The notes below the pieces were generated by a model. It saw nothing but the letters and a program-made list of their open reading frames with translations, ran no database searches and was not told where the DNA came from. This document shows, piece after piece, positions 1,753-24,658 of a DNA stretch of 33,140 bases. The translations under genes and the position numbers were made by a program. Numbering within the stretch: position 1 is the first letter of the stretch; each line of letters starts with the position of its first letter. This DNA is from an uncultured Desulfobacterales bacterium (GTDB taxonomy: Bacteria; Desulfobacterota; Desulfobacteria; Desulfobacterales; SpSt-501), in NCBI GenBank assembly GCA_938048455.1, contig CALIUY010000020.1, positions 1 through 33,140 on the forward strand. The letters are read 5' to 3'.

Positions 1753-1762
1753 CGGCCCGCGT

Positions 1763-2344
1763 TCAGGAACCGGCAGGGACGGCCGCTTCGCGTTGCAGCA
1801 ACGGGCGGATCGAGCGCGCGGCGAGCGCCGCCGCCGCGATCTTCAGGCCGTCCCCCGGCAGAAAGGGCAGCATCCCCGCGGCGATCGCCTTGGAGAGGCT
1901 CATGCCGGTCACCATCTTGAGCCAGCTCACCCCGCAGAGGTAGAGCAGAAGCGATCCCAGAACGAGCGCGGCGACGTCACGCCACAGCCGCGGCGGGCGG
2001 CCCTCGACGATCTTGCCCACAAGAAAGACGACCGGGAGGTAGCCCAGGAGGAATCCGCCCGTCGGTCCGGCGAAGCGGGCGAGCCCGCCCGTTCCACCGG
2101 CGAACACCGGAAGGCCGACCGCACCGGCAAGAAGGTAGATCCCGACCGCGATCAGCCCCCAGCGGCTGCCGAGAAGAATTCCGGCCAGCAGGACGAAGAA
2201 GTTCTGCAGCACGATCGGCACCGGCCCGATCGGAACGGCGATGTAGGCGCCGACCGCCGTGAGCGCGGCAAAGAGAGCCGCCAAGACCATGGGGCGCAGG
2301 GAGGCCGCCTGGACCGCCGTCGTCGTCGATTTCGACTCCTCCAT
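1763..2344 (-). CDS. bioY: Biotin transporter substrate-binding subunit BioY
   Basis: BioY is the integral-membrane, biotin-binding S component of ECF transporters. The 193-residue protein has about six membrane segments and the family's conserved run around residues 38-100 (VPIGPVPIVLQNFFVLLAG, GLPVFAGGTGG, GPTGGFLLGY). It is cotranscribed between birA (24 bp upstream) and the ATPase gene (10 bp downstream). With BioM and BioN it forms a complete importer. No biotin synthesis gene is seen in the window, so this locus serves uptake and use rather than synthesis. Confidence 0.95.
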   Translation of the reverse strand: MEESKSTTTAVQAASLRPMVLAALFAALTAVGAYIAVPIGPVPIVLQNFFVLLAGILLGSRWGLIAVGIYLLAGAVGLPVFAGGTGGLARFAGPTGGFLLGYLPVVFLVGKIVEGRPPRLWRDVAALVLGSLLLYLCGVSWLKMVTGMSLSKAIAAGMLPFLPGDGLKIAAAALAARSIRPLLQREAAVPAGS

Positions 2345-2368
2345 CGTTTGCTCCTTTCCCTTTCCGAT

Positions 2369-3286: not shown

Positions 3287-3291
3287 CTTTG

Positions 3292-3319
3292 GTTAACCTT
3301 AATCGACATTATGGTTAAC
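3292..3319 (-). promoter_or_regulatory. BirA operator of the birA-bioYMN operon
   Basis: GTTAACC (3292-3298, plus strand) and GGTTAAC (3313-3319) form a perfect inverted repeat with a 14-base spacer. This is the architecture of bacterial biotin operators (TTnACC-N14/15-GGTnAA class). It ends 5 bp upstream of the birA start codon. A TTGACA on the minus strand at 3340-3335 could be the -35 element, in which case the operator covers the -10 and start site. No consensus -10 at 17 bases is evident. Confidence 0.85.
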
Positions 3320-3412
3320 GGAAAGGGCCATCGATGTCAACAAAGCCGCTGACGCGGGAATGGCGATAGCCGGCGAAGGGCGCGGGCGGCGACGGACGGC
3401 GGCGCGAAAAGC

Positions 3413-4834: not shown

Positions 4835-4868
4835 CACTGATCGGGACGCCTGCGCGCCTGCCCTCGTT

Positions 4869-6161
4869 TCACGCGGCGATCTCCCGGAAGACTTTGGCCG
4901 CAGCCGCGATCGTGCGCTCGATCTCCTCGCGGCCGTGCGCGCTCGAGACGAAGAGCGCCTCGAACTGCGAGGGGGCGAGATAGACGCCCTCGCGGCGCAT
5001 GCCCTGGTAGAAGCGCGCATAACGGCCGAGATCGCTTTGCTTCGCCGCCTCGAAGTCGCCGACCGGGCCGGGGTGGAAGAAAAGCCCGATCATCGAACCC
5101 ACGTGATCGACGCTGACGGCGACGCCCGCCGCCTCCGCGGCTTTCTTCAGCCCGGTGCAGAGCTTGGCGCTCTTCTTTTCGAGCCGCTCGTAAAAGCCCT
5201 TTTTCCGCAGCTGCTTCAAGGTCGCGATTCCGGCCGCCATGGCAAGCGGGTTCCCCGACAGGGTCCCCGCCTGGTAAACCGGCCCTTCGGGGGCGATGTG
5301 GGACATGATCTTCTTCTTGCCGCCGTAAGCACCGACCGGGAGCCCCCCGCCGATGATCTTGCCGAAACAGCTGAGGTCGGGGCGGATCCCGTAGCGGGCC
5401 TGCGCGCCCCCGTAGGCGACACGAAAGCCGGTCATGACCTCGTCGAAAATGAGGATCGTCCCGTGCCGAGCGGTCTGCCGGCGCAGGGTCTCCAGAAAGC
5501 CGGGCCGCGGGGGCACAAGCCCCATGTTGCCGGCCACGGGCTCGACGATCACGCAGGCCACCTCGCTCCCCCGCTCGCCCATGAGCGCTTCGAAGGCGGC
5601 CGTGTCGTTGTACGGAAGCGAAAGGGTATGCCGGGCCGTCGGGGCGGGAACGCCGGGGCTGCCGGGGATGCCGAGGGTCGCCACCCCGGATCCCGCGGCG
5701 ACGAGCAGCGTGTCGGCATGGCCGTGGTAGCAGCCGTCGAACTTGACGACCAGCTCGCGGCCGGTCACCCCCCGGGCGAGCCGGATCGCGCTCATCGCCG
5801 CCTCGGTCCCGGAATTCACCATGCGCACCATCTCGACCGTGGGCACGGCCTCGATCACCCTCTCGGCCAGTTCGATCTCGAGATCGGTCGGCGCCCCGAA
5901 GCTCGTGCCCCGCTCGAGCACCCCGGAGATCGCCTTGACGACCGCGGGGTGCCGGTGGCCGAGAATCATCGGGCCCCAGGAGCCCACGTAGTCGATGTAG
6001 CGGTTTCCGTCCGCATCCTCGATCCAGGCACCCTCGGCACGGCGGATGAAGAGCGGCTCGGCCCCGACCGACTTGCAGGCGCGTACCGGGCTGTTCACCC
6101 CGCCGGGGATCACGCGCACGGCGCGCTCGTAGAGGCGGCAGGATTGGACGGGCGGCTTCAT
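4869..6161 (-). CDS. hemL: Glutamate-1-semialdehyde 2,1-aminomutase
   Basis: HemL converts glutamate-1-semialdehyde to 5-aminolevulinate, the last step of the C5 route to haem and other tetrapyrroles. The 430-residue PLP enzyme has full family length. It carries GGVNSPVRA (20-28), MVNSGTEA (114-121), the DGCYHGH segment (142-148), FDEVMTGFR (239-247) and the PLP-binding lysine K268 in [18 protein letters not shown] good SD (AAGGAAGGA) precedes the ATG. It leads a probable hemL-mpl unit. Confidence 0.97.
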
Positions 6162-6281
6162 GGCAACGATCCTTCCTTGATCTTTTAAGCGTTAAGGCGG
6201 CGCGATTGCGCGGGGCAGGTTAGCAGAGGCCCCGAAGGGAATCAAGAAAAGGACGCATCGCGGAAGGCCGAAAAAAAAGAC

Positions 6282-6460: not shown

Positions 6461-6811
6461 TGGCTATATGTATAGTCAGCAGGCTAACACTCGAGCTGTG
6501 GCCAACGCCAGGTGGCCGGTTATTTTCTGAGGAACTCAATTTCCCCGTTTTGTAACCCCGGCTTCCCGTTTTTGCCGTTCCTCTTTCTCCAACCTTTTCG
6601 GCCGCAAAACGCCCATTCGGTCTTCAAGCCCGGAATCAGCGCTTTTAGACGAACCGCCCATGCGGCCTGGACGAAATGCACGTTTTTTGCTAATGGTTTG
6701 AAAGCTGAGAGTGAAGGCTGGCAGAACGCCGAAAGCCGTCGCGGCCGATCAGGGTTTCAGAAGGAAACACCGGCCACGCAAAACGCGCTTTGCGGCGCTT
6801 TTTTCTTGGCC
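6461..6811. other. Gene-poor stretch downstream of tRNA-Val
   Basis: About 350 bases with no convincing gene. Composition is less GC-rich than the neighbours, and open frames on both strands (plus-strand frame from 6512; a minus-strand frame ending near 6530) encode low-complexity or arginine/lysine-rich peptides without family features. Position directly behind a tRNA gene is typical of integration scars, but no integrase, att duplication or transposase remnant could be seen. A hairpin at 6777-6804 ends the stretch. Confidence 0.5.
6777..6804 (+). terminator. Terminator-like hairpin just before the MglA-like gene
   Basis: CGCAAA (6777-6782) and TTTGCG (6789-6794) form a stem, then GCGC and a run of six T. 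Flanking GGCC boxes (6772-6775 and 6808-6811) could extend pairing. It ends only 8 bases before the chosen ATG at 6812, where an SD would be expected, so it may attenuate or may mark an older transcript end. Whether it functions is not known. Confidence 0.4.
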
Positions 6812-7651
6812 ATGGCCTTCGTCAACCGCAAAACCCGCGAAATCCAGCTCAAGATCGTCTATGCCGGCCCGGCCCGTGCCGGGAAAAGCGCTTCGCTGGC
6901 ATGGATCCACCGCCGCTTTCCCGCAGCATTTTCAAGCCGCCTGGTGCGGGTGCGGGCGGGCGAAGGCCGAACCGTCTTCTTCGACTTTCTCGCCCTGGTC
7001 CTGCCCTTGCCGTCAGGCATGCGGCTGCACGTCCGCCTTTACACGCTGCCGGGCGATGAGCGCTTCGAAGAGGCGGCGAAGCTCGTCCTGCGCGGGGTGG
7101 ACGGGATCCTTTTCGTCGCCGACGCCTCGGCGATGCGCAAGACGAACATCCTGGCGCTCAGACGGATCGAGTCCATGCTTGCCGCGACGGGAAGAAATCT
7201 GCAGCGACTCCCGCTGGTCTTTCAATTCAACAAATATGATCTGCTCGCCTCCGGTTCGCTTTTGCTTCCCCCCGCGACGCTCGCCGCCGATCTGAACCGC
7301 ACCCTCCGCCGACCCTGCTGGGCGGCGAGCGCGGCCCAGGGCAAAAACCTGCTGGCCCCGTTCTGCAAGATCATCACCCTGTGCGCCGCCGCGCTGGAGG
7401 AGCAGGCGCGCAGGCGAATCCCCGATCTGCCGCTCGAAGGGTTCGCCGCCGCCGTCGCGGAGAGCCTGGAAGAGCGGTTTTCCGAGAAAAGCCCGCCACG
7501 GCGCAAGCCGCCGCGCGCCCCGACCGGCCAAGCTTTCTACCTGATCCCGATCGATCGCTTCGAGGAATTGCTCGCTCAGGTCCAAAGCGGCGTCAGCGCC
7601 CTCGAGCGCATCGCCGCCGTCCTGCGCCGCAAGGACCCGCGGCAACCCTGA
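6812..7651 (+). CDS. MglA-family small Ras-like GTPase with C-terminal extension
   Basis: MglA proteins are cytoplasmic GTPase switches that set cell polarity and motility in bacteria. This 279-residue protein has P-loop GPARAGKS (residues 19-26), R53 followed by VFFDFL as in MglA, the switch II segment LYTLPGDERF (76-85), KLVLRGVDGILFVAD (90-104) and the G4 motif NKYD (140-143). MglA normally has TVPGQ here, and the catalytic Gln82 is replaced by Asp82, while the intrinsic arginine equivalent R53 is kept. Typical MglA ends near 195 residues; this one adds about 80, including RIPDLPLEGFAAAVAESL. No MglB (Roadblock) partner is adjacent. The start has no clear SD and follows a hairpin; the upstream in-frame sequence does not look coding. 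Confidence 0.8.
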   Translation: MAFVNRKTREIQLKIVYAGPARAGKSASLAWIHRRFPAAFSSRLVRVRAGEGRTVFFDFLALVLPLPSGMRLHVRLYTLPGDERFEEAAKLVLRGVDGILFVADASAMRKTNILALRRIESMLAATGRNLQRLPLVFQFNKYDLLASGSLLLPPATLAADLNRTLRRPCWAASAAQGKNLLAPFCKIITLCAAALEEQARRRIPDLPLEGFAAAVAESLEERFSEKSPPRRKPPRAPTGQAFYLIPIDRFEELLAQVQSGVSALERIAAVLRRKDPRQP

Positions 7652-8704: not shown

Positions 8705-8926
8705 CTCCTTCCTCAACTGTAGTTTCCACCCTGCGCCGGGGTCGCCCAAGGACCCAACGCCAGGGTCGCAGGGAAATCGGACCGGCGGAAGCGCGACTTC
8801 CGGGGTCCGTCCTGATGTTTCCGGGATGAACGCAGCGCGGAGAGGTTATCGACTTCCAGGGTGCCAATCGAACACCCGGCCGCAACACCCCGTCGGCCGG
8901 TGACCTCGCAGGAGGATGTGGAGACC
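8705..8926 (+). other. Structured leader upstream of the NEW3 protein gene
   Basis: No gene is seen here. Several perfect stems occur: CGGAAG/CTTCCG around 8785-8801, GGGTG (8859-8863)/CACCC (8873-8877), and CCGGCCG (8876-8882)/CGGCCGG (8894-8900). The last two share bases and would be alternative, and the last ends 10 bases before the SD GGAGG at 8911. No known riboswitch consensus was recognised. Confidence 0.35.
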
Positions 8927-10141
8927 ATGAAGAGACGCATCGGTTTCGGCGGAATCGCAATCACCCTGCTCGTTTTTCTCCTTTCGGCCGCGGCGCCGGC
9001 GTTTGCGGCCGAAAAGTCGGATGCGGGACCCAAACCCGAGCGGCTGCTCGTCCTGGCACCGGAATATCCGGGCATCATCAGCACCCCGGGAAAAGAGATC
9101 AGCATGGATTTGAACCTCATCAACCGTGGCCGGACCGACGAGCTGGTCGATCTGAAGGTGACCCAGACCCCACCCGGCTGGAAGGCGAAGATCAAAACCT
9201 ACCGCTACACGGTCAGCGGGGTCCACGTCCCCGCCGACGACAAGCGCAGCCTCACCTTCGAGGCCGTCCCGGACAAGGAGACCGGCCCGGGCGAATATGC
9301 CTTCCAGGTCGAGGCGGTGACCCGCGACGGCCGCTTCCGGCTCTCCCAGAAAATCGTCATTACCCTTCAGGGCGACCAGGAGGCGAAGGAGCAGGACACC
9401 GGCGTCAAGCTCACGACCTCCTATCCCGTGATCCGCGGCCCCTCGGATGCGACCTTTGAATTCTCGGTCGAGGTGGACAGTCGCCTCGACAAGGAGGCGG
9501 TCTTCGATCTCTTCGGCCAGGGTCCCAAGGGCTGGGAGGTGAACTTCAAGCCCTCCTACGAGACGAAATTCATCTCCAGCCTGCGCCTCAAGGCGAATCA
9601 GAGCCAGTCGATCGCCGTGCAGGTGAAGCCCGCGCCCAACCAGCCCGCAGGCGAATACCCGATCGCCGTGCGCGTCGCCTCGGGCGACGCCAAGGCCGAG
9701 GCGAACCTGACCGTGGTCCTGACCGGAACCTACGAAATCGAGGCCGGAACGACCTCCGGGCTGCTCTCGCTCGAGGCGCGCCCCGGCAAGGCCGCCAACG
9801 TCTCCTTCTACGTCAAGAACACGGGCTCGGCCCCCAACACGAACATCCGCTTCATGACCTTCAAGCCCGAGAACTGGAAAGTGGAGTTCAAGCCGGAGAA
9901 GATCGACGCGATCGAGCCCGGCGCGCTCAAGCAGGTCGAGATGATCGTCACCCCTTACGAGGAGGCGCTCGTCGGCGACTACTCGGTGGCGGTCAAGATC
10001 GACGGCGAGAAAACCAGCCGCAACCTCGAGTTCCGGGTGAGCGTCAAGGCCTCGGCCGCCTGGGCCTGGGTGGGGATCGCGATCATCGTGGCCGTCATCG
10101 CCGGGCTGTTGTTCCTGTTCCGCAAGCTGGGAAGACGTTGA
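8927..10141 (+). CDS. Membrane-anchored NEW3/CARDB-type protein of an ABC transporter locus
   Basis: The 404-residue protein has a Sec signal peptide (residues 1-27, cleavage near AFA-AEK), an extracytoplasmic region of three Ig-like repeats (about 35-130, 140-240, 245-375) and a C-terminal membrane anchor (about 378-398) ending in KLGRR. Repeats share the pattern of a Pro-Gly segment, an asparagine-rich turn and PPGWKAKI, GPKGWEVNF or KPENWKVEF, which is the NEW3 (alpha-galactosidase-associated) signature. Such proteins often precede an ABC ATPase and ABC-2 permease and are thought to be their periplasmic or surface partner; the cargo is unknown. The ATG at 8927 is set by GGAG and GGAGG upstream and by the signal peptide. 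It is separated by 7 bp from the ATPase gene. Confidence 0.82.
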   Translation: MKRRIGFGGIAITLLVFLLSAAAPAFAAEKSDAGPKPERLLVLAPEYPGIISTPGKEISMDLNLINRGRTDELVDLKVTQTPPGWKAKIKTYRYTVSGVHVPADDKRSLTFEAVPDKETGPGEYAFQVEAVTRDGRFRLSQKIVITLQGDQEAKEQDTGVKLTTSYPVIRGPSDATFEFSVEVDSRLDKEAVFDLFGQGPKGWEVNFKPSYETKFISSLRLKANQSQSIAVQVKPAPNQPAGEYPIAVRVASGDAKAEANLTVVLTGTYEIEAGTTSGLLSLEARPGKAANVSFYVKNTGSAPNTNIRFMTFKPENWKVEFKPEKIDAIEPGALKQVEMIVTPYEEALVGDYSVAVKIDGEKTSRNLEFRVSVKASAAWAWVGIAIIVAVIAGLLFLFRKLGRR

Positions 10142-10148
10142 GGTCGAG

Positions 10149-10904
10149 ATGGAAACCGCACCCGTCGTCCTCTCCACCGAAGAGCTGACCAAGGTCTACA
10201 AGAACCAAACGGCCGTCGACCGGCTGACCTTCGAGGTGCGCGAGGGGGAGATCTTCGGCTTCCTCGGGCCGAACGGCGCCGGCAAGACGACCACCATCCT
10301 CATGCTGCTCGGCCTGACCGAGCCGACGAGCGGAAAGCTCCAAGTGCTCGGCTTGAATCCCACGCGCGAGCCGATCAAGGTGAAGCGGAAGGTCGGCTAC
10401 CTGCAGGAGAACATGGGATTTTATTCCGACCTGACCGGCCGGCAGATGCTCTCTTTCGTGGCCGACCTGAACGGGATCGCCCCGGCCGAGGCCGAAGGCC
10501 GGATCCAAAAAGCGCTCGAAACCGTGGGGCTCGCCGACGACGCCGAGAAAAAGATCGGCGCCTACTCCCGCGGCATGCGCCAGCGGCTGGGGATCGCCGA
10601 GCTGTTGATCAAAGACTCGCGCGTCGCCTTTCTCGACGAACCCACCCTCGGGCTCGACCCCGATGCGACCCAGAGGATCATGGAGCTCATCCAGAACCTC
10701 GCCCGCACGAAAGGGATGACCATTCTGCTCTCCAGCCACCAGCTGCACCAGGTGCAGAAGGTCTGCGACCGGGTGGGAATCATGATCCGCGGGCGCATGG
10801 TCGCCCACGGGCCGCTCGAGGAGCTCGCCCGCGCGAAGTTCGGGGTCGACCACGAGGAGTACACGCTCGAAGAAATCTACATGAAGTATTTCCTGGAGGC
10901 CTGA
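10149..10904 (+). CDS. ABC transporter ATP-binding protein
   Basis: This 251-residue ATPase is of the CcmA/NatA type, which drives ABC-2 exporters. Walker A is GPNGAGKT (residues 40-47), the Q-loop is around Q86, the signature is the variant YSRGMRQR (139-146), Walker B is VAFLDEPTLGLD (159-170) and the H-loop is SSH (195-197). The C-terminal tail (about 205-251) is short and acidic, ending EEIYMKYFLEA, as in exporters without a regulatory domain. It begins 7 bp after the NEW3 gene and the permease GTG follows its stop by one base, so the three genes form one operon. Confidence 0.92.
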   Translation: METAPVVLSTEELTKVYKNQTAVDRLTFEVREGEIFGFLGPNGAGKTTTILMLLGLTEPTSGKLQVLGLNPTREPIKVKRKVGYLQENMGFYSDLTGRQMLSFVADLNGIAPAEAEGRIQKALETVGLADDAEKKIGAYSRGMRQRLGIAELLIKDSRVAFLDEPTLGLDPDATQRIMELIQNLARTKGMTILLSSHQLHQVQKVCDRVGIMIRGRMVAHGPLEELARAKFGVDHEEYTLEEIYMKYFLEA

Positions 10905-10905
10905 C

Positions 10906-11859
10906 GTGAACGGACTCGCTGCGATCGTCCGCAAGGAGCTCGCCGACCACTTCAGCAGCTACCGCTTCGTGATCCTCTTCGCCCTGATCGCCATGGTGAG
11001 CCTGATCACGGCTTACATGGTGGGCCTGCGGATCCGCGGGGCCGAAGGCGAGCTCAAGCCGCAATTTGTCTTTCTCATGATTTTCGCCGAGCGGGGGGCG
11101 ATGTTCTCGCTGGTCGAGTTCGTGGCCTTCTTCGGCCCGCTGGTCGGCCTGGTGCTCGGCTTCGATGCGATCAACCGCGAGCGCAACGAGGGAACGCTGA
11201 GCAAGATCCTCGCCCAGCCGATTTTCCGCGACGTCGTGATCAACGGCAAATTCCTGGCCGGGGTGATCATGATCGCGGTGCTGCTCACGGCGATCGTGCT
11301 GGTGATCACGGGACTCGGACTCGCCGTGGTCGGGGTCGTCCCGGGGCCCGAGGAGCTGTTGCGCGTTGCGGTCTATCTCGTCGTGAGCATCGTCTACGTG
11401 GCCTTGTGGCTCGGGGTGGCGATCCTCTTTTCGATCCTCTTCCGCAGTACGGCGACCTCGGCGCTCGCCTCGCTTGCGGTGTGGATCTTCTTCTCCTTCT
11501 TCGTCACCATCGGGGCGAGCATCCTCGCCAACGCCCTGCTCGGTCAGGCGACGGATCTCCGGCCCGAGCAGGCGATGCGCAAGATCGCCGCCGTACGCCA
11601 GGTGGCCCTCGTTTCGCCCATGGAGCTTTACTCCGAGGCGACGGCGACGGTGATCGACCCCATGCGCCGCTCGGCCCGCTCCTTCATCCCCGGCGGCCCC
11701 CTCGAAGCGCTTTCCATGACCCGGTTCTCGGGGCCGCTCGCCTTCGGGCAAAGCCTGCTCGTGGTCATGCCCCACATCATCACGCTCCTTGCCGTGACGG
11801 TGGTCTGCTTCGCCATTTCCTACACCGTTTTCATGCGCCAGGAGATCCGCTCGCTCTGA
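10906..11859 (+). CDS. ABC-2 type transporter permease
   Basis: The 317-residue protein has about six membrane segments (near residues 22-42, 72-88, 107-138, 142-168, 182-208 and 280-310) and an extracytoplasmic loop between the fifth and sixth. The start KELADHFSSYRF and INRERNEGTLSKILAQPI (coupling region) are typical of ABC2 permeases related to NosY. It starts at GTG with an SD GGAGG about 7 bases before, one base after the ATPase stop. The exporter would consist of this permease as a homodimer plus the ATPase and the NEW3 protein. Substrate cannot be read from the sequence. Confidence 0.88.
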   Translation: MNGLAAIVRKELADHFSSYRFVILFALIAMVSLITAYMVGLRIRGAEGELKPQFVFLMIFAERGAMFSLVEFVAFFGPLVGLVLGFDAINRERNEGTLSKILAQPIFRDVVINGKFLAGVIMIAVLLTAIVLVITGLGLAVVGVVPGPEELLRVAVYLVVSIVYVALWLGVAILFSILFRSTATSALASLAVWIFFSFFVTIGASILANALLGQATDLRPEQAMRKIAAVRQVALVSPMELYSEATATVIDPMRRSARSFIPGGPLEALSMTRFSGPLAFGQSLLVVMPHIITLLAVTVVCFAISYTVFMRQEIRSL

Positions 11860-11995: not shown

Positions 11996-13642
<1,647 letters not shown>

Positions 13643-13930
13643 TTATTCCAGAATTCCGAGAACGTCGTCTTCGCGCATGAAGATGTGCTCGACACCGTCG
13701 ATTTTGATTTCGTTTCCGGCGTACTTGGAGAAGAGAATGCGGTCTCCCTTTTTCACCTCCATGGGGATGCGTTTGCCGTCCTCGCCCATCTTGCCCGGCC
13801 CCACGGCGACGACTTTGCCTTCCTGCGGCTTTTCTTTCGCCGTGTCCGGGATGATGATGCCGCCGGCGGTCTTCTTCTCCTCTTCGACGCGCACGACCAA
13901 GATTCTGTCGTTCATGGGCCTGATCTTCAT
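13643..13930 (-). CDS. groS: Co-chaperonin GroES (10 kDa)
   Basis: The 95-residue protein is full length and caps the GroEL ring. It has the N-terminal [12 protein letters not shown], the mobile loop [20 protein letters not shown] (about 16-35), GKVVAVGPG, and the end [22 protein letters not shown] very strong SD (AAGGAGGG) precedes the ATG. It is the first gene of groES-groEL. Confidence 0.97.
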
Positions 13931-14154: not shown

Positions 14155-15504
14155 TCAGACCACGCCCTGGTCGAGCATGGCGCGGGCGACTTTTTCGAAG
14201 GCGGCGAGGTTCGCCCCGCGCAGGAGTTCGCCCGGGGAGCCGTAGGATTCCGCCGCCTCAAGGCAGGTGCGGTGGATCCCCTTCATGAGAAGCCGCAGCC
14301 GGGCGTCGATTTCCTCCCCGGCCCAGGAAAGCCGCATGCTGTTCTGCACGAGCTCGAGCCCGCTCACGGCGACTCCGCCCGCGTTCGCGGCCTTGCCGGG
14401 GGCGAAGAGGACGTTCTTGCCGGTGAAGAGCTGGACGGCCTCGGGCGTGCAGGGCATGTTCGCCGCCTCGCAGACGAGTTTGACGGGATGGTTGATCAGG
14501 CGGTAGGCGTCCTGCTCGCCGATCTCGTTTTCGGTCGCGCAAGGGAAGGCGCAATCGGCGCGGTGCGCCCAGAGGGGATTGTGATCGCCGGCCGGGTCGA
14601 CCGGGACGAAGACGGCGGAGCGGTATTTCTCGGCGTACTCGTGGATACGGCCGCGGCGCACGTTTTTCAGATGTTTGACGAAAGCGAGCTTTTCCTCGTC
14701 GATTCCGTCGCGGTCGTAGATGTGGCCCGAAGAGTCGGAGAGGGTGACCACGCGCGCCCCGGCCTGGATCAGTTTTTCGGCCGTGTGCTGGGCGACGTTG
14801 CCGGAGCCGGAAACCAGGCAGACCTGTCCCTCCAAGCCGAGCCCGTGCGCGGCGAGCAGCTCGGAGGCGAAATAGACGCAGCCGTAGCCTGCGGCCTCGG
14901 CGCGGAAGAGGCTTCCGCCCCAGGCAAGACCCTTGCCCGTGAGCGCCCCCTCGAAGCGGTTGGCCATCCGCCGGTAGGCACCGAAGAGAAAGCCGATCTC
15001 ACGCGCCCCGACGCCGATGTCCCCGCCGGGGATATCGACGCGGGACCCGACGTGACGGTAAAGTTCGCGCATGAAGCTCGTGCAGAAACGCATCACTTCG
15101 GCGTCGGATTTGCCCTTGGGATCGAAATCCGCCCCGCCCGCTCCGCCGCCGAGGGGAAGGCCGGTCAAGGCGTTTTTGAAGACCTGCTGAAAGGCGAGAA
15201 ACTTGAGGATGCTCTGCGTGACCGAAGGGTGAAAGCGCAGCCCGCCCTTGAAGGGGCCGAGCGCGTTGTTCATTTCCACGAGAAAGCCGCGGTTCACGCA
15301 GGTACGGCCGCGGTCGTCCACCCAGGGGACGCGGAAGGAAATGACACGCTCGGGCTCGACGATCCGCGCGAGCAACCCCTCGGCAACCGCCTGCGGCAGC
15401 CGGGCGAGAAACGGCTCCACACTTTCCAACACCTCGCGCACGGCCTGCTGAAATTCGCGTTCCCCGGCATCCCGCGCCAGAAACCTTTCGATCGTCTCCC
15501 GCAT
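14155..15504 (-). CDS. gdhA: NADP-type glutamate dehydrogenase homologue lacking the catalytic lysine
   Basis: Hexameric GdhA reversibly aminates 2-oxoglutarate to glutamate with NADPH. The 449-residue protein is full length and aligns with an offset of -3 to Clostridium symbiosum GDH: K86 in GPFKGGLRF and K110 in VFKNALTG match substrate-binding K89 and K113, D162 in PGGDIGVG matches D165, and the nucleotide-binding GSGNVAQHTAEKL is kept. The usual GGGKGG segment instead reads GGGAGG, so the catalytic lysine (K125 equivalent) is alanine at 122, codon GCG at 15141-15139. All else is well conserved and the frame is intact, so it looks functional in fold but altered in catalysis. It is transcribed toward groES and stands alone. 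Confidence 0.88.
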   Translation of the reverse strand: MRETIERFLARDAGEREFQQAVREVLESVEPFLARLPQAVAEGLLARIVEPERVISFRVPWVDDRGRTCVNRGFLVEMNNALGPFKGGLRFHPSVTQSILKFLAFQQVFKNALTGLPLGGGAGGADFDPKGKSDAEVMRFCTSFMRELYRHVGSRVDIPGGDIGVGAREIGFLFGAYRRMANRFEGALTGKGLAWGGSLFRAEAAGYGCVYFASELLAAHGLGLEGQVCLVSGSGNVAQHTAEKLIQAGARVVTLSDSSGHIYDRDGIDEEKLAFVKHLKNVRRGRIHEYAEKYRSAVFVPVDPAGDHNPLWAHRADCAFPCATENEIGEQDAYRLINHPVKLVCEAANMPCTPEAVQLFTGKNVLFAPGKAANAGGVAVSGLELVQNSMRLSWAGEEIDARLRLLMKGIHRTCLEAAESYGSPGELLRGANLAAFEKVARAMLDQGVV

Positions 15505-15606: not shown

Positions 15607-16638
15607 ATGCCGCGCGCAGCCCGGATCGACGCCCCCGGGGCCCTGCATCATGTCATCGCCCGCGGGATCGAGGGGCGCCCCCTCTTTCACGACGACCAAG
15701 ACCGTGCGGATCTGGTGTCCCGCCTCGGTCGGCTCGCCGCGGAAGGGGCCTTTTCCATCTACGCTTGGGCGCTCCTTCCGAACCACTTTCACCTGCTGTG
15801 CGAGACGGCGGCGCTCTCCCTCTCCACGGCCATGCAGCGGCTGCTCACCGGCTATGCGGTCACGTTCAACAAACGTCACGGCCGTCGCGGCCATCTCTTC
15901 CAAAACCGCTTCCGTTCGCTTCTGTGCCAGAAGGAGTCCTATCTGCGGGAACTCGTACGCTACATCCATCTCAACCCGTTGCGCGCGGGCGTGCTGCGAA
16001 ATCTCCGAGAACTCGGGGACTGGCCCTGGAGCGGCCACAGCGCGCTTCTCGGCCGCATCCCCCGGCCCTGGCAGGAAACCGGGCGTGTGCTCTCTTTTTT
16101 CGCACGCTCGCCGCAAGCGGCGCGCTCCGCCTACAGCCGTTTCCTCGCCGCCGGGGTCGACCGCACAACTCAGGATCTCGGCCTCGAGCGGCTTCCGCTT
16201 CCCTCCTCGGGCAACTGGTCCGAGGTGATTCCCCGGCGGCACCGGGGGGAGTTCCGCTCGACCGTGGAACGGTGCATTTTGGGGGACCGGCGTTTCGTGG
16301 CCGAAACGGTCGGACGAATGGAGAGGCGGCAGCAACGCAGTTTTCGGCTCGATGCCGCCCGCCCCGACATGGCGGCGGTCTGCCGCCGCGCCTGCGAGGC
16401 TTGGGGCCTCTCCACGGGCGAGCTTTGCGCCGGAAGTCGCCGCCGCCCCGTGGTCGAAGCCCGCACGGCCCTCTCGTGGCTGGCCGTGCGCGAACTGGGT
16501 TACTCAGGCGCCGAAGTGGCAAGATTCCTGGGGGTGAGCACCTCGTGCATCACCCGGGCGGCCTCACACCCGATGCCGGACGGCGTGGAAAGGCTCCGCC
16601 GCGGCATGGGGATCGAAAAAAACCTCACCGGGAGATGA
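15607..16638 (+). mobile_element. RayT/REP-type Y1 (HUH) transposase with DnaA-like C-terminal domain
   Basis: The 343-residue protein belongs to the TnpA-REP group of single-strand HUH endonucleases that process palindromic repeats. The N-terminal Y1 domain has the HUH motif NHFHLL (residues 59-64), RRGHLFQNRFRS (93-104) and the catalytic tyrosine region RYIHLNPLRAGVL (118-130, Y119). Residues about 265-335 resemble the DnaA C-terminal helix-turn-helix (AAVCRRACEAWGLSTGEL, then GAEVARFLGVSTSCIT), a known fusion. The ATG at 15607 has a TACAAT box ending 6 bases before it, so the message could be leaderless. No clear REP palindrome pairs or insertion ends were found nearby. Its stop is 4 bp before the PBP gene. 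Confidence 0.85.
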
Positions 16639-18101: not shown

Positions 18102-19301
18102 TTAAACCATGCGGGAGGCGACGGCCTCGATGAAGCCCTCGGTCGTCTGCCAGTGGGCGGGCCGCGGCTCCATCAGGGGCACGAGATCCCGGGTCACGAT
18201 TCCCGCCTCGATGCACCCCAGCACCGCCCCCTCCAGCCGATCGGCGAAAGCGACGACCTCGGGGGTACCGTCCAGCTCGCCGCGTTTGCGCAGCGCCCCG
18301 CTCCAGGCGAAGATCGAGGCGACCGAGTTCGTGCTCGTCGGGTTGCCCTTCAGGTGCTCGTAGTAGTGGCGGCGCACCGTACCGTGGGCGGCCTCGAACT
18401 CGAACTTCCCCTCGGGGCTGACCAAAACCGAAGTCATCATCCCGAGACTGCCGAACCCCGCCGCCACCACATCCGAAAAGACGTCTCCGTCGTAGTTGCT
18501 CAAGGCCCAGAGAAAGCCCCCCTCGTGCTTGAGCGCCTGGGCCGCCGCATCGTCGATCAACAGATACCGGTAGCCGATCCCCGCCCGGGCGAACTCCTCC
18601 TGGCGCGCCGCGGTCTCCTCGGCGAAGATCTCCTTGAAGCGGCCCTGGTAGATCTTGCTGATCGTATCTTTGGTCGAAAACCAGAGGTCGATCTTTTCGC
18701 TCAGCGCAAGCGCGATGCAAGCGCGCGCAAAGGAGCGGATCGAGCCCTCCAGGTTGTGGATCCCCATCACGATCCCCGGCCCGTTGAACTCGTGCACGGG
18801 AAGCCGCCGCTCCTCGCCTCCGCCCTCCGGCCGGAAAACGATCTCCACGCGCCCGGGCCGGTCGACCGCCATCTCCACCCCTCGATAGAGATCACCGTAA
18901 GCGTGCCGACCCACGACGATCGGCTTCTTCCAGCTCCGCACCGCGGGCCGGATGTTGGACACCAGGATCGGCTTGCGGAAAACCGTTCCGTCGAGGATGG
19001 AGCGGATCCGGCCGTTCGGCGAGGGCCAGGCTTTTTTCAACCCGTACTCGGCGACCCGCTCGGCATCCGGCGTGATCGTCGCGCACTTGACCCCCACACC
19101 GTATTCGCGGATGGCGTGCGCCGCCTCCTCGGTGACCCGGTCATCGGTCGCATCCCGCGCGCGGATGCCCAAGTCATAGTATCGGAGCTCGACCTCGAGG
19201 TAGGGCAGGATGAGCTTTTCCTTGATCAGCGCCCAGATGATCCGTGTCATCTCGTCGCCGTCGAGTTCGACGAGCGGGGTCTTGACCCGGATTTTCGCCA
19301 T
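18102..19301 (-). CDS. icd: NADP-dependent isocitrate dehydrogenase (homodimeric, eukaryote-like type)
   Basis: This enzyme oxidises and decarboxylates isocitrate to 2-oxoglutarate. The 399-residue protein is of the eukaryote-like subfamily: [12 protein letters not shown] near the start, [39 protein letters not shown], the metal-binding NYDGDVFSD and [13 protein letters not shown]. The RH pair in GTVRRH matches the NADP-phosphate-binding residues of human IDH1 (R314, H315), so NADP is expected. The ATG at 19301 has a strong SD (AGGAAGGG). It sits 35 bp after tctA in the same direction, which couples tricarboxylate uptake to its oxidation. A second, distinct decarboxylating dehydrogenase is encoded at 25900-26982. 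Confidence 0.92.
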
Positions 19302-19336
19302 ACGGCCCTTCCTCCCCTCTCTCCGGCGAGCCCTGC

Positions 19337-20830
19337 TCAGGAAGCCCCGAGCATCTTCGGCTTCTTGATCAGGGGGTAGACGATCGAAACGAGCGCCCCG
19401 AGCAGCAACACGGCGCTGATCGGGCCGGAAACCAGCCCGAGCGGGCTTCCCCCCGCAAGCAGGAGCGCCCGCCGCAGCGAAAGCTCGGCGAGATCCCCGA
19501 GTACCAGCGCCAGGATGCAGGGAGCGACCGGAACCCCGAACTTGCGCATGAAGTAGCCGATCAGCGAGAAGACGAACATGAGCATCATGTCGTCCACGCT
19601 GTTGTTGATCCCGAACGCCCCGACCACGCAAAGAATCAGGATCGCGGCCGAAAACACCGAGTAGGGCAGCCGGTTCAGCTGCAGGAAAAGCCGAATCGCC
19701 GTCCCCGCCACCACGAGCAAGAGCAGGTTGATCACGATCATCGCCACGAAGATGCCGTAGATGACATCGGGCCGCTGGGAAAGAAGCAGCGGCCCGGGCT
19801 GCATGCCGTGGATCATGAAGGCCGCCACCAGCATGGCCGTGGTGTTGCTCCCGGGGATCCCGAGGGAGAGCAGGATCGTCATCGAGCCGCCGGTCGAGGC
19901 GTTGTTGGCGCTCTCGGCCGCCATCAGCCCCTCGATCGCCCCCTTGCCGAACTTCTGCGGCTCGTGCTTCGCCGTGCGCGCGGCCTCGCCGTAAGCGAGA
20001 AAGGCCGCGATCGTCGCCCCGGCCCCCGGCAGCGCCCCCACGATCGTGCCGATGATCGGCGAGCGGATCATCGTCAGCCAGTACTTCCGGAAAAGCGAAA
20101 ACCGCGGCAACTCTTGCAGCAGCCCGCGGTACTCGACCATCCCTTTGTATTCTTTGAAGGGCTCCTCGGCCTCGATCATGATCTCCGAGACGGCAAGAAG
20201 CCCGACCATCGCCACCACGAAATTCACCCCTCCGAGAAGCGTCACCGTTCCGAAGGTAAACCGCTCCTCGCCGGTGATGCCGTCGGTGCCGATGGTCGCG
20301 AGAAACAACCCGAAGAAGCAGGAGAGAAACCCTTTAAGCATCGAGCCGCCCGAGAGCCCTGAGACGACGCTCAACCCCAGAATGGTGAGCGCGAAGTATT
20401 CCGCAGGCCCGAAGCGCAGCGCGAAATCGGCGATCAGGGGGGTGGCGACGATCATGAACAGCACGCTGAAAAGGCCGCCGAAGATCGAGCACAAGAGATA
20501 GGTCCACATGGCGGCCGCGGCCTTGCCTTGCTTGGCGAGCGCATGGCCTTCGATCACCGTCGGCACCGAGGAGGGCTCACCGGGAATACCGAAAAGGATG
20601 GAGGTGATCCCGCCTCCCGTGATGCCGCCCAGGTATGCCCCGACCAGAAGCACGAAAGCCGTCATGGGCGAAAGCGTGTAGGTGAAGGAGAGGATGAGGA
20701 CGACCCCCATCGAGGTGCTGATGCCGGGCAGCGCCCCCGCGAGCAACCCCCAGAGCGCGCCCAGGACCATGGCAAGCAGGTTCGGCGGCAGGAGCACCGT
20801 GGCGAAGGCCTGCGCATAGATTTCGAGCAT
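19337..20830 (-). CDS. tctA: Tripartite tricarboxylate transporter, large membrane subunit TctA
   Basis: TctA is the large channel subunit of the proton- or sodium-driven TTT importer. The 497-residue protein has about twelve membrane segments and both TctA signature regions: [20 protein letters not shown] (from residue 32) with [11 protein letters not shown], and the repeat [19 protein letters not shown] with [14 protein letters not shown]. These PGxS/PGxG hairpins are typical. It follows tctB by 23 bp. The substrate is set by TctC and not readable here, but tricarballylate, citrate or aconitate fits the neighbours. Confidence 0.95.
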
Positions 20831-20853
20831 TACGCCCTCCCCGCACCTGGGAC

Positions 20854-21360
20854 TTAGTAAAATAGGCGGCTGAACGCGGCGAAGATCCCGATCCCTTTGG
20901 GAAAGGGGATCGAGAGAAATTTAAGGAATACGGCGCTCATGACCGTGGTGAGCACCAAGGGCGCCGTGACGAGAACCTTGACCCGGCGCTCCCCCAGGGC
21001 GAAGGCGAAGGCCGGAATAAACAGCAGCGTCGCCAGGATAAAGCCGATCAAGGAAACGGCCCAGAGATAGACGAAGAAGCAGGCCGTGCTCAAAGCCACG
21101 GCCTGCCGTCTTCTGCGGCTTTCATCCCCCTCGTCCCGGTCGGCCGCTTGCGCCGCCGCAGCCCGCCGCGGGGATCGCACGGCCCGGACCAGCAACACCA
21201 CGCTGAACCCCAGGGAGGCCGCAAGCGCAATCAGCGGCCAAAGGGCGCTTCCGATCTCGCCCGCCCGCCCCTCGCCCATCAGGGCGAGCGCCTGCACGCC
21301 CATGAAGCCGAAAAAGGCGACGCAGACGGCAAAAAAGAAAACCTCCCCTTTCGTTTTCAT
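20854..21360 (-). CDS. tctB: Tripartite tricarboxylate transporter, small membrane subunit TctB
   Basis: The 168-residue protein has four predicted membrane segments, the TctB pattern: EVFFFAVCVAFFGFMG (about 5-20), LIALAASLGFSVVLLV, a cytoplasmic arginine/alanine/acidic loop (about 62-92) and two C-terminal hydrophobic hairpins ending FPKGIGIFAAFSRLFY. The ATG at 21360 is favoured (MKTKGEV start, GGAGAGG upstream); an in-frame GTG at 21402 would add 14 polar residues. It lies between tctC (61 bp) and tctA (23 bp). Confidence 0.85.
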   Translation of the reverse strand: MKTKGEVFFFAVCVAFFGFMGVQALALMGEGRAGEIGSALWPLIALAASLGFSVVLLVRAVRSPRRAAAAQAADRDEGDESRRRRQAVALSTACFFVYLWAVSLIGFILATLLFIPAFAFALGERRVKVLVTAPLVLTTVMSAVFLKFLSIPFPKGIGIFAAFSRLFY

Positions 21361-21421
21361 GCGGGCACCCGCCTCTCCTTCGCCTTCTCGTTCTCGACCC
21401 ACGCGGCCTCGCGGCCGAGGT

Positions 21422-22405
21422 CTATTTTACGTATCCCAGATCTTTCAGCACCTCGGCGAAGAAGGCGATCTCCTCTTCCCAGTATTTGCGGGTCTCCTCC
21501 GGGCCGAGGTAGCCGGGACGCACATCGAGGTGGTTGTCTTTGATGTACTTCACATAGGTCGGGTTCTCGAGCGCTTTGCGGATCACCTCGAGCAGGAACT
21601 TTTGCCGCTCGGGCGGGGTGCCTTTTCGCACCGCCCAGGCGCGCATGAGGCCGTGGGTGTAGTTGATGCCGCGCTCCACAGCGGAGGGCACATCGGGCAA
21701 CGCCGGATGCCGCTTGTCCATGATCACGCAAAGGGCCCGGAGCTTGCCCGCGTTGATGAGCGGAAGCGTCTCGGCCAGTTCCTCGACCGCCCCGTGGATG
21801 TGGCCGCCCAGGATCGCGGCTTTGATCTCGGCCCCGGAGTCGAAGGGCACGAAGGTCACCTGCACGCCCACGGTCTTGAAAAAAGCGACGGTCTGGATCT
21901 CGGACCAGCCGCCCGGGGAGGTGCCGGCGAATTTCAGCATCTTCGGATTCTTTTTCCCGTAGTCGATCAGCTCTTCGATCGTCTTGAACTTGGATTCTCC
22001 GGAGACGATGACCCCGGAGGTGTCCCATTGGATGCGGCACAGAGGATCGAAGTCGTTCAGAATGTGCGCCCGGGTTTTGGGTTTGACGGCATCGATCAAA
22101 TGGGAGGTCGTCACCGCGAGGACCGTGTAGCCGTCGGCGGGCTGTTGGCTTACGTGCAGCATGCCCTTGGTCGCCCCGCCGCCCGGCATGTTGGTCACCA
22201 CCAGACCGTGTTTGAGCAGGGGCTTCATTCCCTCGGCCACAGCGCGCGCCGCCGTGTCGCTTCCGCCGCCCGCTCCGAAGGGAACGACGATCTCGATCGC
22301 CCGCTCGGGAAAATCCGCCGCCTGCGCCGTGCTGATCCTAAAGCCGCCACCCAGGAGAAGCGCAAGGGAAAGCGTAAGGGAAAGGCAAACCATCTTTTTT
22401 TTCAT
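21422..22405 (-). CDS. tctC: Tripartite tricarboxylate transporter, periplasmic binding protein TctC
   Basis: This 327-residue extracytoplasmic receptor of the TctC/Bug family has a signal peptide (residues 1-29, TAQA-ADF). The family's IEIVVPFGAGGGSDTAARAVAEGM follows at about 37-60, then NMPGGGATKGMLHV and a C-terminal PTY/YWEEEIAFFAEV end. It delivers the tricarboxylate to TctBA. SD GGAGGA precedes the ATG. As first gene of tctC-tctB-tctA-icd it is divergent from the PrpR-type activator, 267 bp away. Bug proteins are widely duplicated, so the ligand is uncertain. Confidence 0.93.
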   Translation of the reverse strand: MKKKMVCLSLTLSLALLLGGGFRISTAQAADFPERAIEIVVPFGAGGGSDTAARAVAEGMKPLLKHGLVVTNMPGGGATKGMLHVSQQPADGYTVLAVTTSHLIDAVKPKTRAHILNDFDPLCRIQWDTSGVIVSGESKFKTIEELIDYGKKNPKMLKFAGTSPGGWSEIQTVAFFKTVGVQVTFVPFDSGAEIKAAILGGHIHGAVEELAETLPLINAGKLRALCVIMDKRHPALPDVPSAVERGINYTHGLMRAWAVRKGTPPERQKFLLEVIRKALENPTYVKYIKDNHLDVRPGYLGPEETRKYWEEEIAFFAEVLKDLGYVK

Positions 22406-22487
22406 CGTTTTCCTCCTTCCTCAAAAAGTAGGCTGAGCGCATGGCAAGGCATTACCTCCGGTCGAACGACACCGTCGGCTTGGAGGG

Positions 22488-22548
22488 TATCCGGGAACGC
22501 CGGGAGTATCCGGAATGCGGCGATCTTTGTCAATCATTCACCGATTGA
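22488..22548. repeat. Direct and inverted repeats in the tctC/activator intergenic region
   Basis: TATCCGG occurs at 22488-22494 and 22507-22513, 19 bp apart (about two helical turns). TCAATC (22530-22535) and GATTGA (22543-22548) form an inverted repeat with a 7-base spacer. Both lie between the divergent genes and could be operators, but no assignment is possible. Most of 22406-22672 has no other recognised element apart from the sigma54-like sequence and the operator listed separately. Confidence 0.3.
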
Positions 22549-22566
22549 ACTCCGATTCGCTCACTA

Positions 22567-22582
22567 TACAGAATTCATGCCA
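22567..22582 (-). promoter_or_regulatory. Weak sigma54-like promoter candidate for tctC
   Basis: The minus strand reads TGGCATGAATTCTGTA, with GG at -24 exact and -12 reading GT instead of GC (consensus TGGCACG-N4-TTGCA). It would start near 22556, leaving a 150-base leader to tctC. The operator at 22680-22706 then lies about 130 bp upstream, the usual enhancer distance for a sigma54 activator. The mismatch at -12 keeps confidence low. Confidence 0.3.
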
Positions 22583-22672
22583 GCGATACGGAACATCGGC
22601 CGCGGGCACGAAGGACTGCACAATCCCCGGCTCCGCTCCTTGCTCCGGGGAAGTCCGGGTTGACTTTGGGCA

Positions 22673-24658
22673 ATGCATCTGAAACATAATGTTTCTGTGG
22701 TGAAACCATCTTTCATCTCCTCCGGCCGTAGGGTGCGCATCGGCGTTTTCGCCTCGAGTCCTTCGCTGGTCGAGCGCATCCGCGCGCTGGGCGAGCGGCG
22801 CCACATCGAACTCTCCCTCAGCACCTGCGGCCTCGAAGAGGCCCTGCCCGCCGCCCGGGCGATGGAGGAGCAGGGCATCGAGGTCGTGGTCGGCCGCCGG
22901 GGGACGGCCCATCTCCTGCGCGAAAGCCTGCGCATTCCTGTCCTTTCCTTCCCGCACCGCTCGCTCGATCTTCTCGTGAGCCTGAAGCAGGCGGCCGCCC
23001 GCGGCCGGAAAATCCTGCTTCCCGTCTTCCGCCGCCCGTTCTCGGGAATCGACATCCTCGAGGAGATCCTCGGTCTCGAGATCCACCAGGGCCTTTACAG
23101 CGGCCGGGCCAGCCTCGCGAAGGCGATCGCCGCGGGCGCGCGGCGCGGCTGCGCGGCCGTGGTGGGAGGCGGGGTGACGCAGCGGATCGCCGCCCGCCAC
23201 GGGCTTCCCTTCTTCGAGATCCGCACCTCGGATGAGGATCTTGCGGCAACGCTCGACAACGCCATTTCGGTCGCCCTCGCCGGCCGCGAGCAGCGCGCCG
23301 TCGCCCGCCGCTACCAGGCGGTGATCGATGCCGCATCCGACGGGATCCTCGCCTTCGATGCCGCCGGGTGCGCCATCGTTGCGAACGCCGCGGCCTGCCG
23401 GGCGCTGCGGCTTCCTCAGGAAAAGATCCTCGGCCGCACCGTCTCCGAGCTTCTCGCGCAGAGCCCCGTGCCGCATATTCTCCAGAACCCCGTCCCCGTC
23501 CAGGACCGTATCGACCAGGTCCACGGCGAGCGCTTCGTGTTCAGCGATCGCCCCATTCTGCTCGACGGGGAGACGATCGGCGCGGTTTCGACCTTCCGCG
23601 ACATCGGCGGCGTGATGCGCACGGAGCACGCCGTGCGCCGCACGCTCTCCTTGGGGCTGACCGCGAAGTACGGCCTTGAGCTGCTCGTGCACAAAAGCCC
23701 TTCGATGCAGCGCACGGTGGAGCGCGCCCGGCAGTACGGCCGCACGGATTCGACCGTGCTCCTGATCGGCGAAACCGGAACGGGAAAGGAAATCTTCGCC
23801 CACGGCATCCACCGGCTGAGCCGCAGAAGCCGCCATCCCTTCGTCTCGATCAACTGCGCGGCGCTTCCCGAGCCGCTGCTCGAAAGCGAGCTCTTCGGTC
23901 ACGAGGAAGGCGCCTTCACCGGCTCACGGCGCGGCGGCAAACCCGGCCGTTTCGAACTCGCGCACCAGGGGACGATCTTTCTGGACGAGATCGACTCCAC
24001 CTCGGAGGCGATGCAGCTCCGGCTGCTCCGGGTGCTGCAGGAAGGCGAAGTGATGCGGGTCGGCGGCGACCGCGTCATCCCGGTCGATGTGCGCGTCATC
24101 GCCGCCGCAAGCCGCGAGCTCGAGGCCCCGCTGCGCGAGGGGCGCTTCCGGCCCGATCTCTTCTTCCGCCTGAACGTTCTGCGGCTGCACATCCCGCCGC
24201 TTCGGGAGCGCCGCGAGGACATCGGGCTGCTGCTCTCCCATTTCATCCGCGACTTCTGCAACCGCGAGGGCATCCGGCCGATCCCGATCCCCCGCGCCTA
24301 CTTGGCGAAGCTCGCCGACTACCCCTGGCCGGGAAACGTGCGCCAGCTGAAAAACTTCGCCGAGCGGCTTGTTCTGAACTGCAACCTCTCCTGCGACCCC
24401 GGAATGCTCGACACGCTCTATGCGGAGCTGTTGCGCATCGACGCGCCCCGGTCTCCGCAACCCCCGGCGGCGGGCCGAAGCCCCGCCGCCTCTCCCGCGA
24501 CGGCGAAGCCGCCTTCCGCTGCGGGCGACGAGGCGGCCCATCTCCTCGAGACGCTGCAGCGCAACCGCTTTCACCGCGGCCGCGCGGCGGCCGATCTGGG
24601 GATCAGCCGCACGACCCTCTGGCGCCGCATGCGGGCGCTCGGCCTCGATTGCGCCTGA
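22673..24658 (+). CDS. PrpR-type sigma54-dependent transcriptional activator
   Basis: This 661-residue regulator has a PrpR N-terminal effector domain (about residues 21-200), a PAS domain (about 212-310), a sigma54 AAA+ domain (about 340-570) and a C-terminal Fis-type helix-turn-helix (about 615-660). Walker A is GETGTGKE (366-373), the sigma54-contact loop is GAFTGS (413-418, the serine form is usual in PrpR), and Walker B is TIFLDEID (434-441). PrpR domains bind carboxylate metabolites such as 2-methylcitrate, which fits a tricarboxylate inducer. Target candidates are the sigma54 promoter at 24674 and tct/tcu. The start has a weak SD; GTGs at 22697 or 22733 are alternatives. The operator motif lies at its first codons. 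Confidence 0.9.
   Translation: MHLKHNVSVVKPSFISSGRRVRIGVFASSPSLVERIRALGERRHIELSLSTCGLEEALPAARAMEEQGIEVVVGRRGTAHLLRESLRIPVLSFPHRSLDLLVSLKQAAARGRKILLPVFRRPFSGIDILEEILGLEIHQGLYSGRASLAKAIAAGARRGCAAVVGGGVTQRIAARHGLPFFEIRTSDEDLAATLDNAISVALAGREQRAVARRYQAVIDAASDGILAFDAAGCAIVANAAACRALRLPQEKILGRTVSELLAQSPVPHILQNPVPVQDRIDQVHGERFVFSDRPILLDGETIGAVSTFRDIGGVMRTEHAVRRTLSLGLTAKYGLELLVHKSPSMQRTVERARQYGRTDSTVLLIGETGTGKEIFAHGIHRLSRRSRHPFVSINCAALPEPLLESELFGHEEGAFTGSRRGGKPGRFELAHQGTIFLDEIDSTSEAMQLRLLRVLQEGEVMRVGGDRVIPVDVRVIAAASRELEAPLREGRFRPDLFFRLNVLRLHIPPLRERREDIGLLLSHFIRDFCNREGIRPIPIPRAYLAKLADYPWPGNVRQLKNFAERLVLNCNLSCDPGMLDTLYAELLRIDAPRSPQPPAAGRSPAASPATAKPPSAAGDEAAHLLETLQRNRFHRGRAAADLGISRTTLWRRMRALGLDCA
22680..22706. 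promoter_or_regulatory. Shared inverted-repeat operator, copy A (tctC/activator region)
   Basis: TGAAACATAATGTTTCT (22680-22696) contains GAAAC-N5-GTTTC, followed after 6 bases by a third half-site GAAAC (22702-22706). The same arrangement occurs upstream of tcuA at 29644-29668. It overlaps the annotated start of the activator gene, so it may mean that the true start is downstream, or the site may lie in the coding start. It is the probable binding site of the PrpR-type activator. Confidence 0.5.

Follow-up and report, generated by a model that had tools for sequence, protein, structure and literature searches.

A conserved glutamate dehydrogenase paralogue lacking the catalytic lysine, and a candidate regulatory subunit, in the Desulfobacterales

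Glutamate dehydrogenase (GDH) connects the metabolism of carbon with that of nitrogen, and the lysine of its active site is regarded as indispensable. Excerpts of published work assign roles to the surrounding residues. In E. coli GDH, K92 binds the substrate gamma-carboxylate and K116 the alpha-carboxylate (PMC8784811, in part). In Arabidopsis GDH1, Lys102 primes water, and Thr185 and Asn216 help to shape the nicotinamide site; Thr185 lies within reach of the nicotinamide and was judged not to be placed for a hydrogen bond (PMC7326016, in part). The equivalent lysine of leucine dehydrogenase (LeuDH), K80, is the general base and had to stay in enzyme engineering, and Km values were measured for the K80A and K80Q variants, with some activity left (PMC6033044, in part).

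Regulators derived from enzymes that have lost activity are already known as a kind. The GDH of Thermus thermophilus is a heterohexamer of GdhA and GdhB in which GdhA is inactive and regulatory, showing that a GDH can work as catalytic and regulatory subunits (PMC9570180, in part). In trypanosomatids, a dead paralogue of deoxyhypusine synthase raises activity 3000-fold; the enzyme family is unrelated, but the logic of a dead paralogue and an impaired enzyme forming an active complex is like the one considered here (PMC3663545, in part).

The gene studied here, gdhA-A, lies in a stretch of 33,140 nucleotides from an uncultured Desulfobacterales bacterium (assembly GCA_938048455.1, contig CALIUY010000020.1), the whole of which we refer to as the window. 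The open reading frame (positions 14155–15504, minus strand, stop codon included) begins with ATG and encodes a protein of 449 amino acids, P0001. Both Pfam domains of the family, ELFV_dehydrog and ELFV_dehydrog_N, are found in P0001, and homology to the curated GDH model NCBIfam NF006929 is full-length (659.7 bits; cut-off 536). Compared with canonical hexameric GdhA (NF006929; E. coli, Corynebacterium glutamicum, Clostridium symbiosum), P0001 is alike in length, in both domains, in K89, K113, S380 and D165, and in the GSGNVA motif. It differs in having Ala for the catalytic Lys and for the nicotinamide-site Thr, in L97Q, and in the motif EAANMP.

The catalytic lysine (K125 in C. symbiosum numbering) falls at codon 122 (15139–15141, minus strand). 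This codon is GCG, encoding Ala, and the motif GGGKGG is accordingly absent: P0001 reads PLGGGAGG, where E. coli GDH has PMGGGKGG and Corynebacterium GDH has PIGGGKGG. Codon reading and alignment thus agree with the preliminary description of this DNA, which had placed Ala at this position. Among 28 named GDH loci, 27 have Lys at residue 122; the exception is the copy of genome G003 that belongs with P0001 in what we call clade A. The description had also held a read error to be unlikely. A change from a Lys codon to GCG takes two substitutions (AAG) or three (AAA), and Ala is found at the same site in 23 other genomes of the order. While the window's own genome is a 64-contig assembly, those 23 include assemblies of one or two contigs (G273, G279, G324, G327). 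A sequencing or assembly error at codon 122 is refuted by these orthologues, and we give it practically no weight.

Like Thermus GdhA, P0001 shares its cell with a catalytic GDH of which it is a paralogue; P0001 is presumed to be inactive, and its hexamer type is a prediction. The Thermus chains (PDB 3AOE) match P0001 far more weakly (E values 1.5e-58 and 8.8e-38) than does the E. coli type (5e-150), so its origin is separate from that of Thermus GdhA. The replacement of the lysine by Ala, and by Gln in other lineages discussed below, is the same as in LeuDH K80A and K80Q; those changes were engineered, whereas the ones described here are natural and conserved (PMC6033044, in part).

We examined the remaining active-site residues of P0001 and of its relatives in clade A. 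The equivalents of K89, K113 and D165, described earlier as kept, are indeed present as K86 (15247–15249), K110 (15175–15177) and D162 (15019–15021), all on the minus strand. K86, the lysine for the substrate gamma-carboxylate, is found in 16 of 17 clade-A rows (Ser in genome G154), while K110, for the alpha-carboxylate, and the catalytic aspartate D162 are found in 17 of 17. S381, equivalent to S380, and R201 are in place in P0001, and S381 is present in 16 of the 17 rows. The Rossmann coenzyme motif GSGNVA (14791–14808, minus strand) is kept in P0001 and is whole in most clade-A rows; in the copies of genomes G071 and G058 its Asn is replaced by Lys, and the G071 copy also lacks S381.

The further statement that all other motifs were intact therefore stands for K86, K110, D162 and GSGNVA, but not for three other sites. 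EGANMP has become EAANMP in the window copy and in that of G003. Residue 160, equivalent to A163, is Gly in P0001, and this pocket position varies within clade A (Gly, Ala, Glu or Thr). Codon 205 (14890–14892, minus strand) encodes Ala, whereas canonical GDH has here the Thr of its R-x-E-A-T-G motif, a residue that lines the nicotinamide site. Judging by equal spacing from the lysine (83 and 114 residues), residues 205 and 236 would correspond to Thr185 and Asn216 of Arabidopsis GDH1. Across the order, 82 of 83 Lys-bearing rows have Thr205, whereas 29 of 36 Lys-less rows have lost it; in the other clade-A rows the residue is Ala (22 of 23) or Pro (one). Since Thr185 was judged not to hydrogen-bond the nicotinamide, T205A may matter less than it seems. 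A third clade-wide change, Gln for Leu at codon 97 (15214–15216, minus strand), is shared by 23 of 23 other clade-A rows.

As a baseline for conservation, we used 179 columns that are at least 98% conserved in 74 canonical rows; these rows were picked by the signature KKKDTNS, so that the presence of Lys122 and Thr205 follows from the selection itself. Kept out of this set were a 305-residue fragment from G013 (L139; A-like where readable and without residue 122), five distant GDH types (L004, L213, L217, L074, L211) and four copies that keep the lysine with other catalytic or binding residues changed (L183, L146, L148, L073). Clade A keeps a mean of 91% of the baseline columns over residues 1–195, 93% over 196–380 and 94% over 381–449. 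Nine of the columns are changed in at least half of the clade-A rows; changes in 22 or more of the 23 are confined to columns 97, 122 and 205. No position has gained Lys, Arg or His in 80% or more of the clade-A rows, so there is no clade-wide compensating basic residue, and the neighbouring lysine that the preliminary description named as a possible substitute was not found as a conserved feature. This bears on whether P0001 could still work as a glutamate dehydrogenase, with the role of the lysine taken over by a bound ion or a different residue. The fold expected from homology, D165 and both carboxylate lysines are intact, and LeuDH K80A kept measurable kinetics (PMC6033044, in part). With no basic residue gained, the nicotinamide-site Thr also gone and a full-signature copy usually present in the same genome, we consider a working GDH improbable. 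An AlphaFold monomer, built from a 24-row alignment, had a mean pLDDT of 74.4 and was poor at residues 76–126 and 155–166; because pLDDT was below 50 over most of the active-site region, pocket geometry was left out of the argument.

Searching 58 genomes (the window's own and 57 relatives) identified an orthologue with 90% identity in G003 (DYEU01000021.1) and same-genus orthologues with 70–73% identity in G001, G002, G004 and G005, all with Ala at residue 122. Across the order, a search with the clade-A alignment detected a GDH at E ≤ 1e-200 in 229 of 389 genomes. The A form (Ala at 122) was found as 24 genes in 24 genomes, window included; the other 23 answer the preliminary description's suggestion to look for further Ala-122 members. 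These genes belong to six families: six in f1, which contains this genus, four in f8, three in f29, nine in f30, and one each in f53 and f66. As residue 122 was read in fetched loci, which were the best matches to Lys-less profiles or came from multi-copy genomes, these clade sizes are lower bounds and the proportions do not equal frequencies in the order. A search of 395 genomes of the phylum gave 13 places at E ≤ 1e-238. Among these 13, Ala is confined to the window and G058, which both belong to this order, whereas Lys occurs at all three places from outside it.

In a 69-row tree, the 17 clade-A rows form one clade (ultrafast bootstrap/SH-aLRT 100/98), which persists when ten trait columns are removed (98/95). 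Pairwise dN/dS (NG86) is 0.112, 0.062, 0.168 and 0.146 for four clade-A pairs and 0.054 and 0.086 for two canonical pairs. The clade-A protein is kept by purifying selection in the tested pairs, slightly more loosely than the enzyme. The question of whether gdhA-A is a decaying duplicate on its way to becoming a pseudogene turns on these values. In the G000/G003 pair the A gene has roughly double the dN/dS of the canonical copy (0.112 against 0.054), as decay would predict, and the A gene of G154 (L089/L152) has an in-frame TGA at codon 54 together with K89S, and is probably decaying. That gene is the sole broken one: 23 of 24 A genes are free of stop codons, dN/dS is far below 1, and the A form extends over six families. 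A simple pseudogene is rejected by the orthologues, dN/dS and the tree, and we regard ongoing decay of gdhA-A as very improbable.

Selection on the protein would also be expected if it were an active enzyme with changed chemistry, reducing or oxidising a dicarboxylate via a preformed imine, an N-substituted amine or a hydroxy acid, without lysine-activated water. The amine and water side of the pocket is emptied (K125A, T205A), both carboxylate clamps and D165 are kept at the frequencies given above, residue 160 varies as a change of substrate would have it, and the Rossmann motif is whole in most rows. The Km values of LeuDH K80A and K80Q indicate that exchanging the lysine for Ala need not abolish turnover (PMC6033044, in part). 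Set against this, the nicotinamide-site Thr is gone as well, and no metabolic partner gene is common to the families examined. Moreover, two other lineages have replaced the lysine by Gln or His, one of them also without D165, which looks like loss and not redesign. We therefore consider changed chemistry unlikely, although the retention of D165 in clade A makes it possible and argues against a pure binder, which would not need that residue.

The preliminary description had proposed looking for a second, canonical gdhA in the same genome, and one is present. In addition to gdhA-A, the genome carries three GDH genes: L002 on contig 19 (canonical, 65% identical to P0001), L003 on contig 22 (64% identical, with His for Lys in GGAHGG) and L004 on contig 4 (36% identical, a distant type with a canonical motif). 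The canonical gene and gdhA-A sit on different contigs, which counts against a regulatory partnership. In 20 of the 24 A-form genomes there is also a GdhA that has the lysine and the complete active-site signature. Genomes G002 and G004 have only contig-end GDH fragments, 80–86% identical to L002, and G255 has only a divergent copy with the full signature, sharing 51% identity with P0001, and a second copy that carries K89M/K113N. Genome G071 (one contig, 92% complete; L159, L202) combines the A form with a Lys-bearing copy without Asp165 (D165G). A search of G071 with L002 at E ≤ 1e-10 found no canonical GDH, the only other match being one of 69 residues at the N-terminus. Elsewhere in the collection, a contig of G085 carries a facing pair of GDH genes separated by about 3 kb (G085:C97:13344-19184), of which the one read, L144, is canonical, and L073 (G047:C7) is a divergent GDH paralogue with K89Q, K113R and S380A that keeps Lys125.

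Taken together, the lysine and the nicotinamide-site Thr have been lost, and the carboxylate residues and Rossmann motif are kept under purifying selection. We tentatively favour, at somewhat short of even confidence, the interpretation that gdhA-A encodes a conserved, catalytically disabled GDH paralogue that serves as a ligand-sensing regulatory subunit, most likely in mixed hexamers with canonical GdhA. The lost lysine would have activated water and stabilised the carbinolamine. With both it and the nicotinamide-site Thr gone, glutamate dehydrogenation would be slight and overall turnover little or none. P0001 may still bind 2-oxoglutarate or glutamate, and perhaps NAD(P)(H), and would act as a ligand-sensing regulatory subunit, most likely joining mixed hexamers with the canonical GdhA of the same genome and tuning its activity. 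Such a subunit fits the data because the carboxylate clamps are kept, selection holds and a working paralogue is present in 20 of the 24 genomes. Regulator, binder and enzyme with a new substrate had all been put forward in the preliminary description; the first two make up the best-fitting class, and a new substrate is still conceivable. The absence of a canonical GDH from the G071 search, and the presence of only a divergent one in G255, argue against a fixed partnership with canonical GDH.

We also considered the genes around gdhA-A. The next gene downstream on the same strand, after a gap of about 225 bases, is groES (13643–13930, minus strand; Pfam Cpn10), followed by groEL (11996–13621, minus strand; Pfam Cpn60_TCP1). 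groES is near the A gene at all six loci of this genus and at none of the 11 clade-A loci examined in other families. Divergent from gdhA-A, and upstream of it, is a gene resembling REP-associated tyrosine transposases (15607–16638, plus strand; Pfam Y1_Tnp), which scores 75.7 bits against NF047646, just below the cut-off of 80. An ABC-2 exporter cassette comprising a NEW3 protein, an ATPase and a permease also lies near gdhA-A (8861–11859, plus strand), and an ABC-2 permease is found at eight of 17 clade-A loci examined, in families f1, f8 and f29. Locus L158, from f30, has a gene of the TamB type and one for a hybrid histidine kinase next to the A gene. No operon partner is common to the clade-A families at the loci examined, the neighbours in f1, f8 and f29 differing from those in f30 and f66.

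Several other features of the region were noted. A gene of the DUF6866/Sfum_1244 family lies between gdhA-A and groES in four same-genus genomes (L077:11474-12565 and its equivalents L079-L081), but not in the window or in G003. A NUDIX-like neighbour is a weak call (Pfam E value 2e-4 in the window), and its relative in L149 has no Pfam match. Positions 18102–24658 of the window hold a tricarboxylate uptake block near gdhA-A, with NADP isocitrate dehydrogenase, TctA, TctB, TctC and a PrpR_N sigma-54 activator. Long open reading frames at 1292–6188, 6512–7651 and 28053–29654 have no Pfam match at E ≤ 0.001; relatives of those at 4812–6188 and 6512–7651 exist in G003.

The variation of neighbours by family, from groESL to the ABC-2/NEW3 cassette to the genes at L158, would suit a free-standing sensor, that is, a moonlighting homohexamer that binds 2-oxoglutarate or glutamate and a nucleotide and has a target other than canonical GDH. 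Such a protein would also account for G071, where the A form occurs with no canonical GDH found. As a full-signature GDH is also present in 20 of 24 genomes and no single target gene is tied to the A genes across families, a free-standing sensor seems to us rather unlikely.

Clade A is not the only Lys-less lineage in the order. A second, the Q line (K125Q and D165G), forms one clade of seven rows (100/99) in families f8, f29 and f63. A third, the Q/H line, forms one clade of six rows (100/100) and is limited to this genus. With the ten trait columns removed, support is 100/97 and 100/100, respectively. K125Q and D165G occur in seven of seven Q-line rows (L133, L138, L136, L132, L070, L145, L029), together with N349D. 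Three Q/H pairs have dN/dS (NG86) of 0.091, 0.041 and 0.109. A single clade of all 30 Lys-less rows was rejected (p-AU 0.0013, trait columns left in). On this tree the lysine must have changed three times, with at least two of the changes forced by well-supported branches. Two copies that have lost D165 and kept the lysine, L146 and L148, join the Q line at 99/92; because they group with it, D165 may have gone first in that line. Joining both Q lines with L146 and L148 as one group reached only 76/75, and 42/0 when the ten trait columns were dropped. Having lost both catalytic residues, the Q line presents a stronger case for a non-enzyme than clade A does.

The Q and Q/H genes share a genomic context. 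All 13 of those read sit directly behind a co-oriented glutamate-synthase-like (GltS-like) gene encoding about 527 amino acids (L071:7250-10216; L166:4548-7514; L160-L165; L167; L168; L029; L110; L112), with a gap of 36–59 bases where both ends were read. The GltS-like protein has an N-terminal cysteine cluster; in G068 its gene is cut by the contig end. It matches the glutamate synthase domain PF01645 with E values of 1e-13 to 2e-15 in the three tested, whereas searches of the PDB (E ≤ 0.001) and of NCBIfam gave no match. One pair of a GltS-like gene and a Lys-less GDH is found in the genome of the window itself, on contig 22 (L003). A GltS-like gene also lies upstream of the Lys-bearing L128 (the same copy as L183), of L148 and of L120 (about 370 bases off), about 3 kb upstream in L181, and divergently in L184. 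Neither the window nor the fetched flanks of 16 other clade-A loci contain such a gene. The L183 copy (L183:3690-5036, G255:C470) keeps Lys125 beside the GltS-like gene, with K89M and K113N and the Rossmann Asn lost, and may represent another way of losing function.

The clade-wide and recurrent nature of the lysine loss lay beyond the view of the preliminary description. We propose as a possibility, in which our confidence is low, that duplicated GDHs in one order were retained after repeated losses of the catalytic lysine, on the simplest count three. The A form would have become either a regulatory subunit or a sensor of 2-oxoglutarate/NAD(P)H that acts on its own, and the Q (D165G) and Q/H forms would have become partners of the GltS-like protein encoded upstream, in a glutamate-forming or glutamate-sensing two-component system. 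No open-access title or opening of an abstract describing Lys-less GDH paralogues in bacteria was found, and the recurrence of these lineages and their link to the GltS-like gene were likewise absent from the open-access titles and abstract openings searched. While pseudoenzyme regulators are a known kind, these Lys-less GDH lineages are apparently new.

These lineages matter for annotation. The NF006929 equivalog model scores P0001, L003, L133 and L141 far over its cut-off and names them "NADP-specific glutamate dehydrogenase", so that a Lys-less copy alone could lead to a GDH being attributed to a genome. Going by sequence, P0001 belongs to the GDH family; going by the defining lysine, it is not a GDH in function, pending assay. 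A natural loss of this lysine that is both clade-wide and recurrent offers direct material for studying the conversion of a central enzyme to another role, probably that of a regulator.
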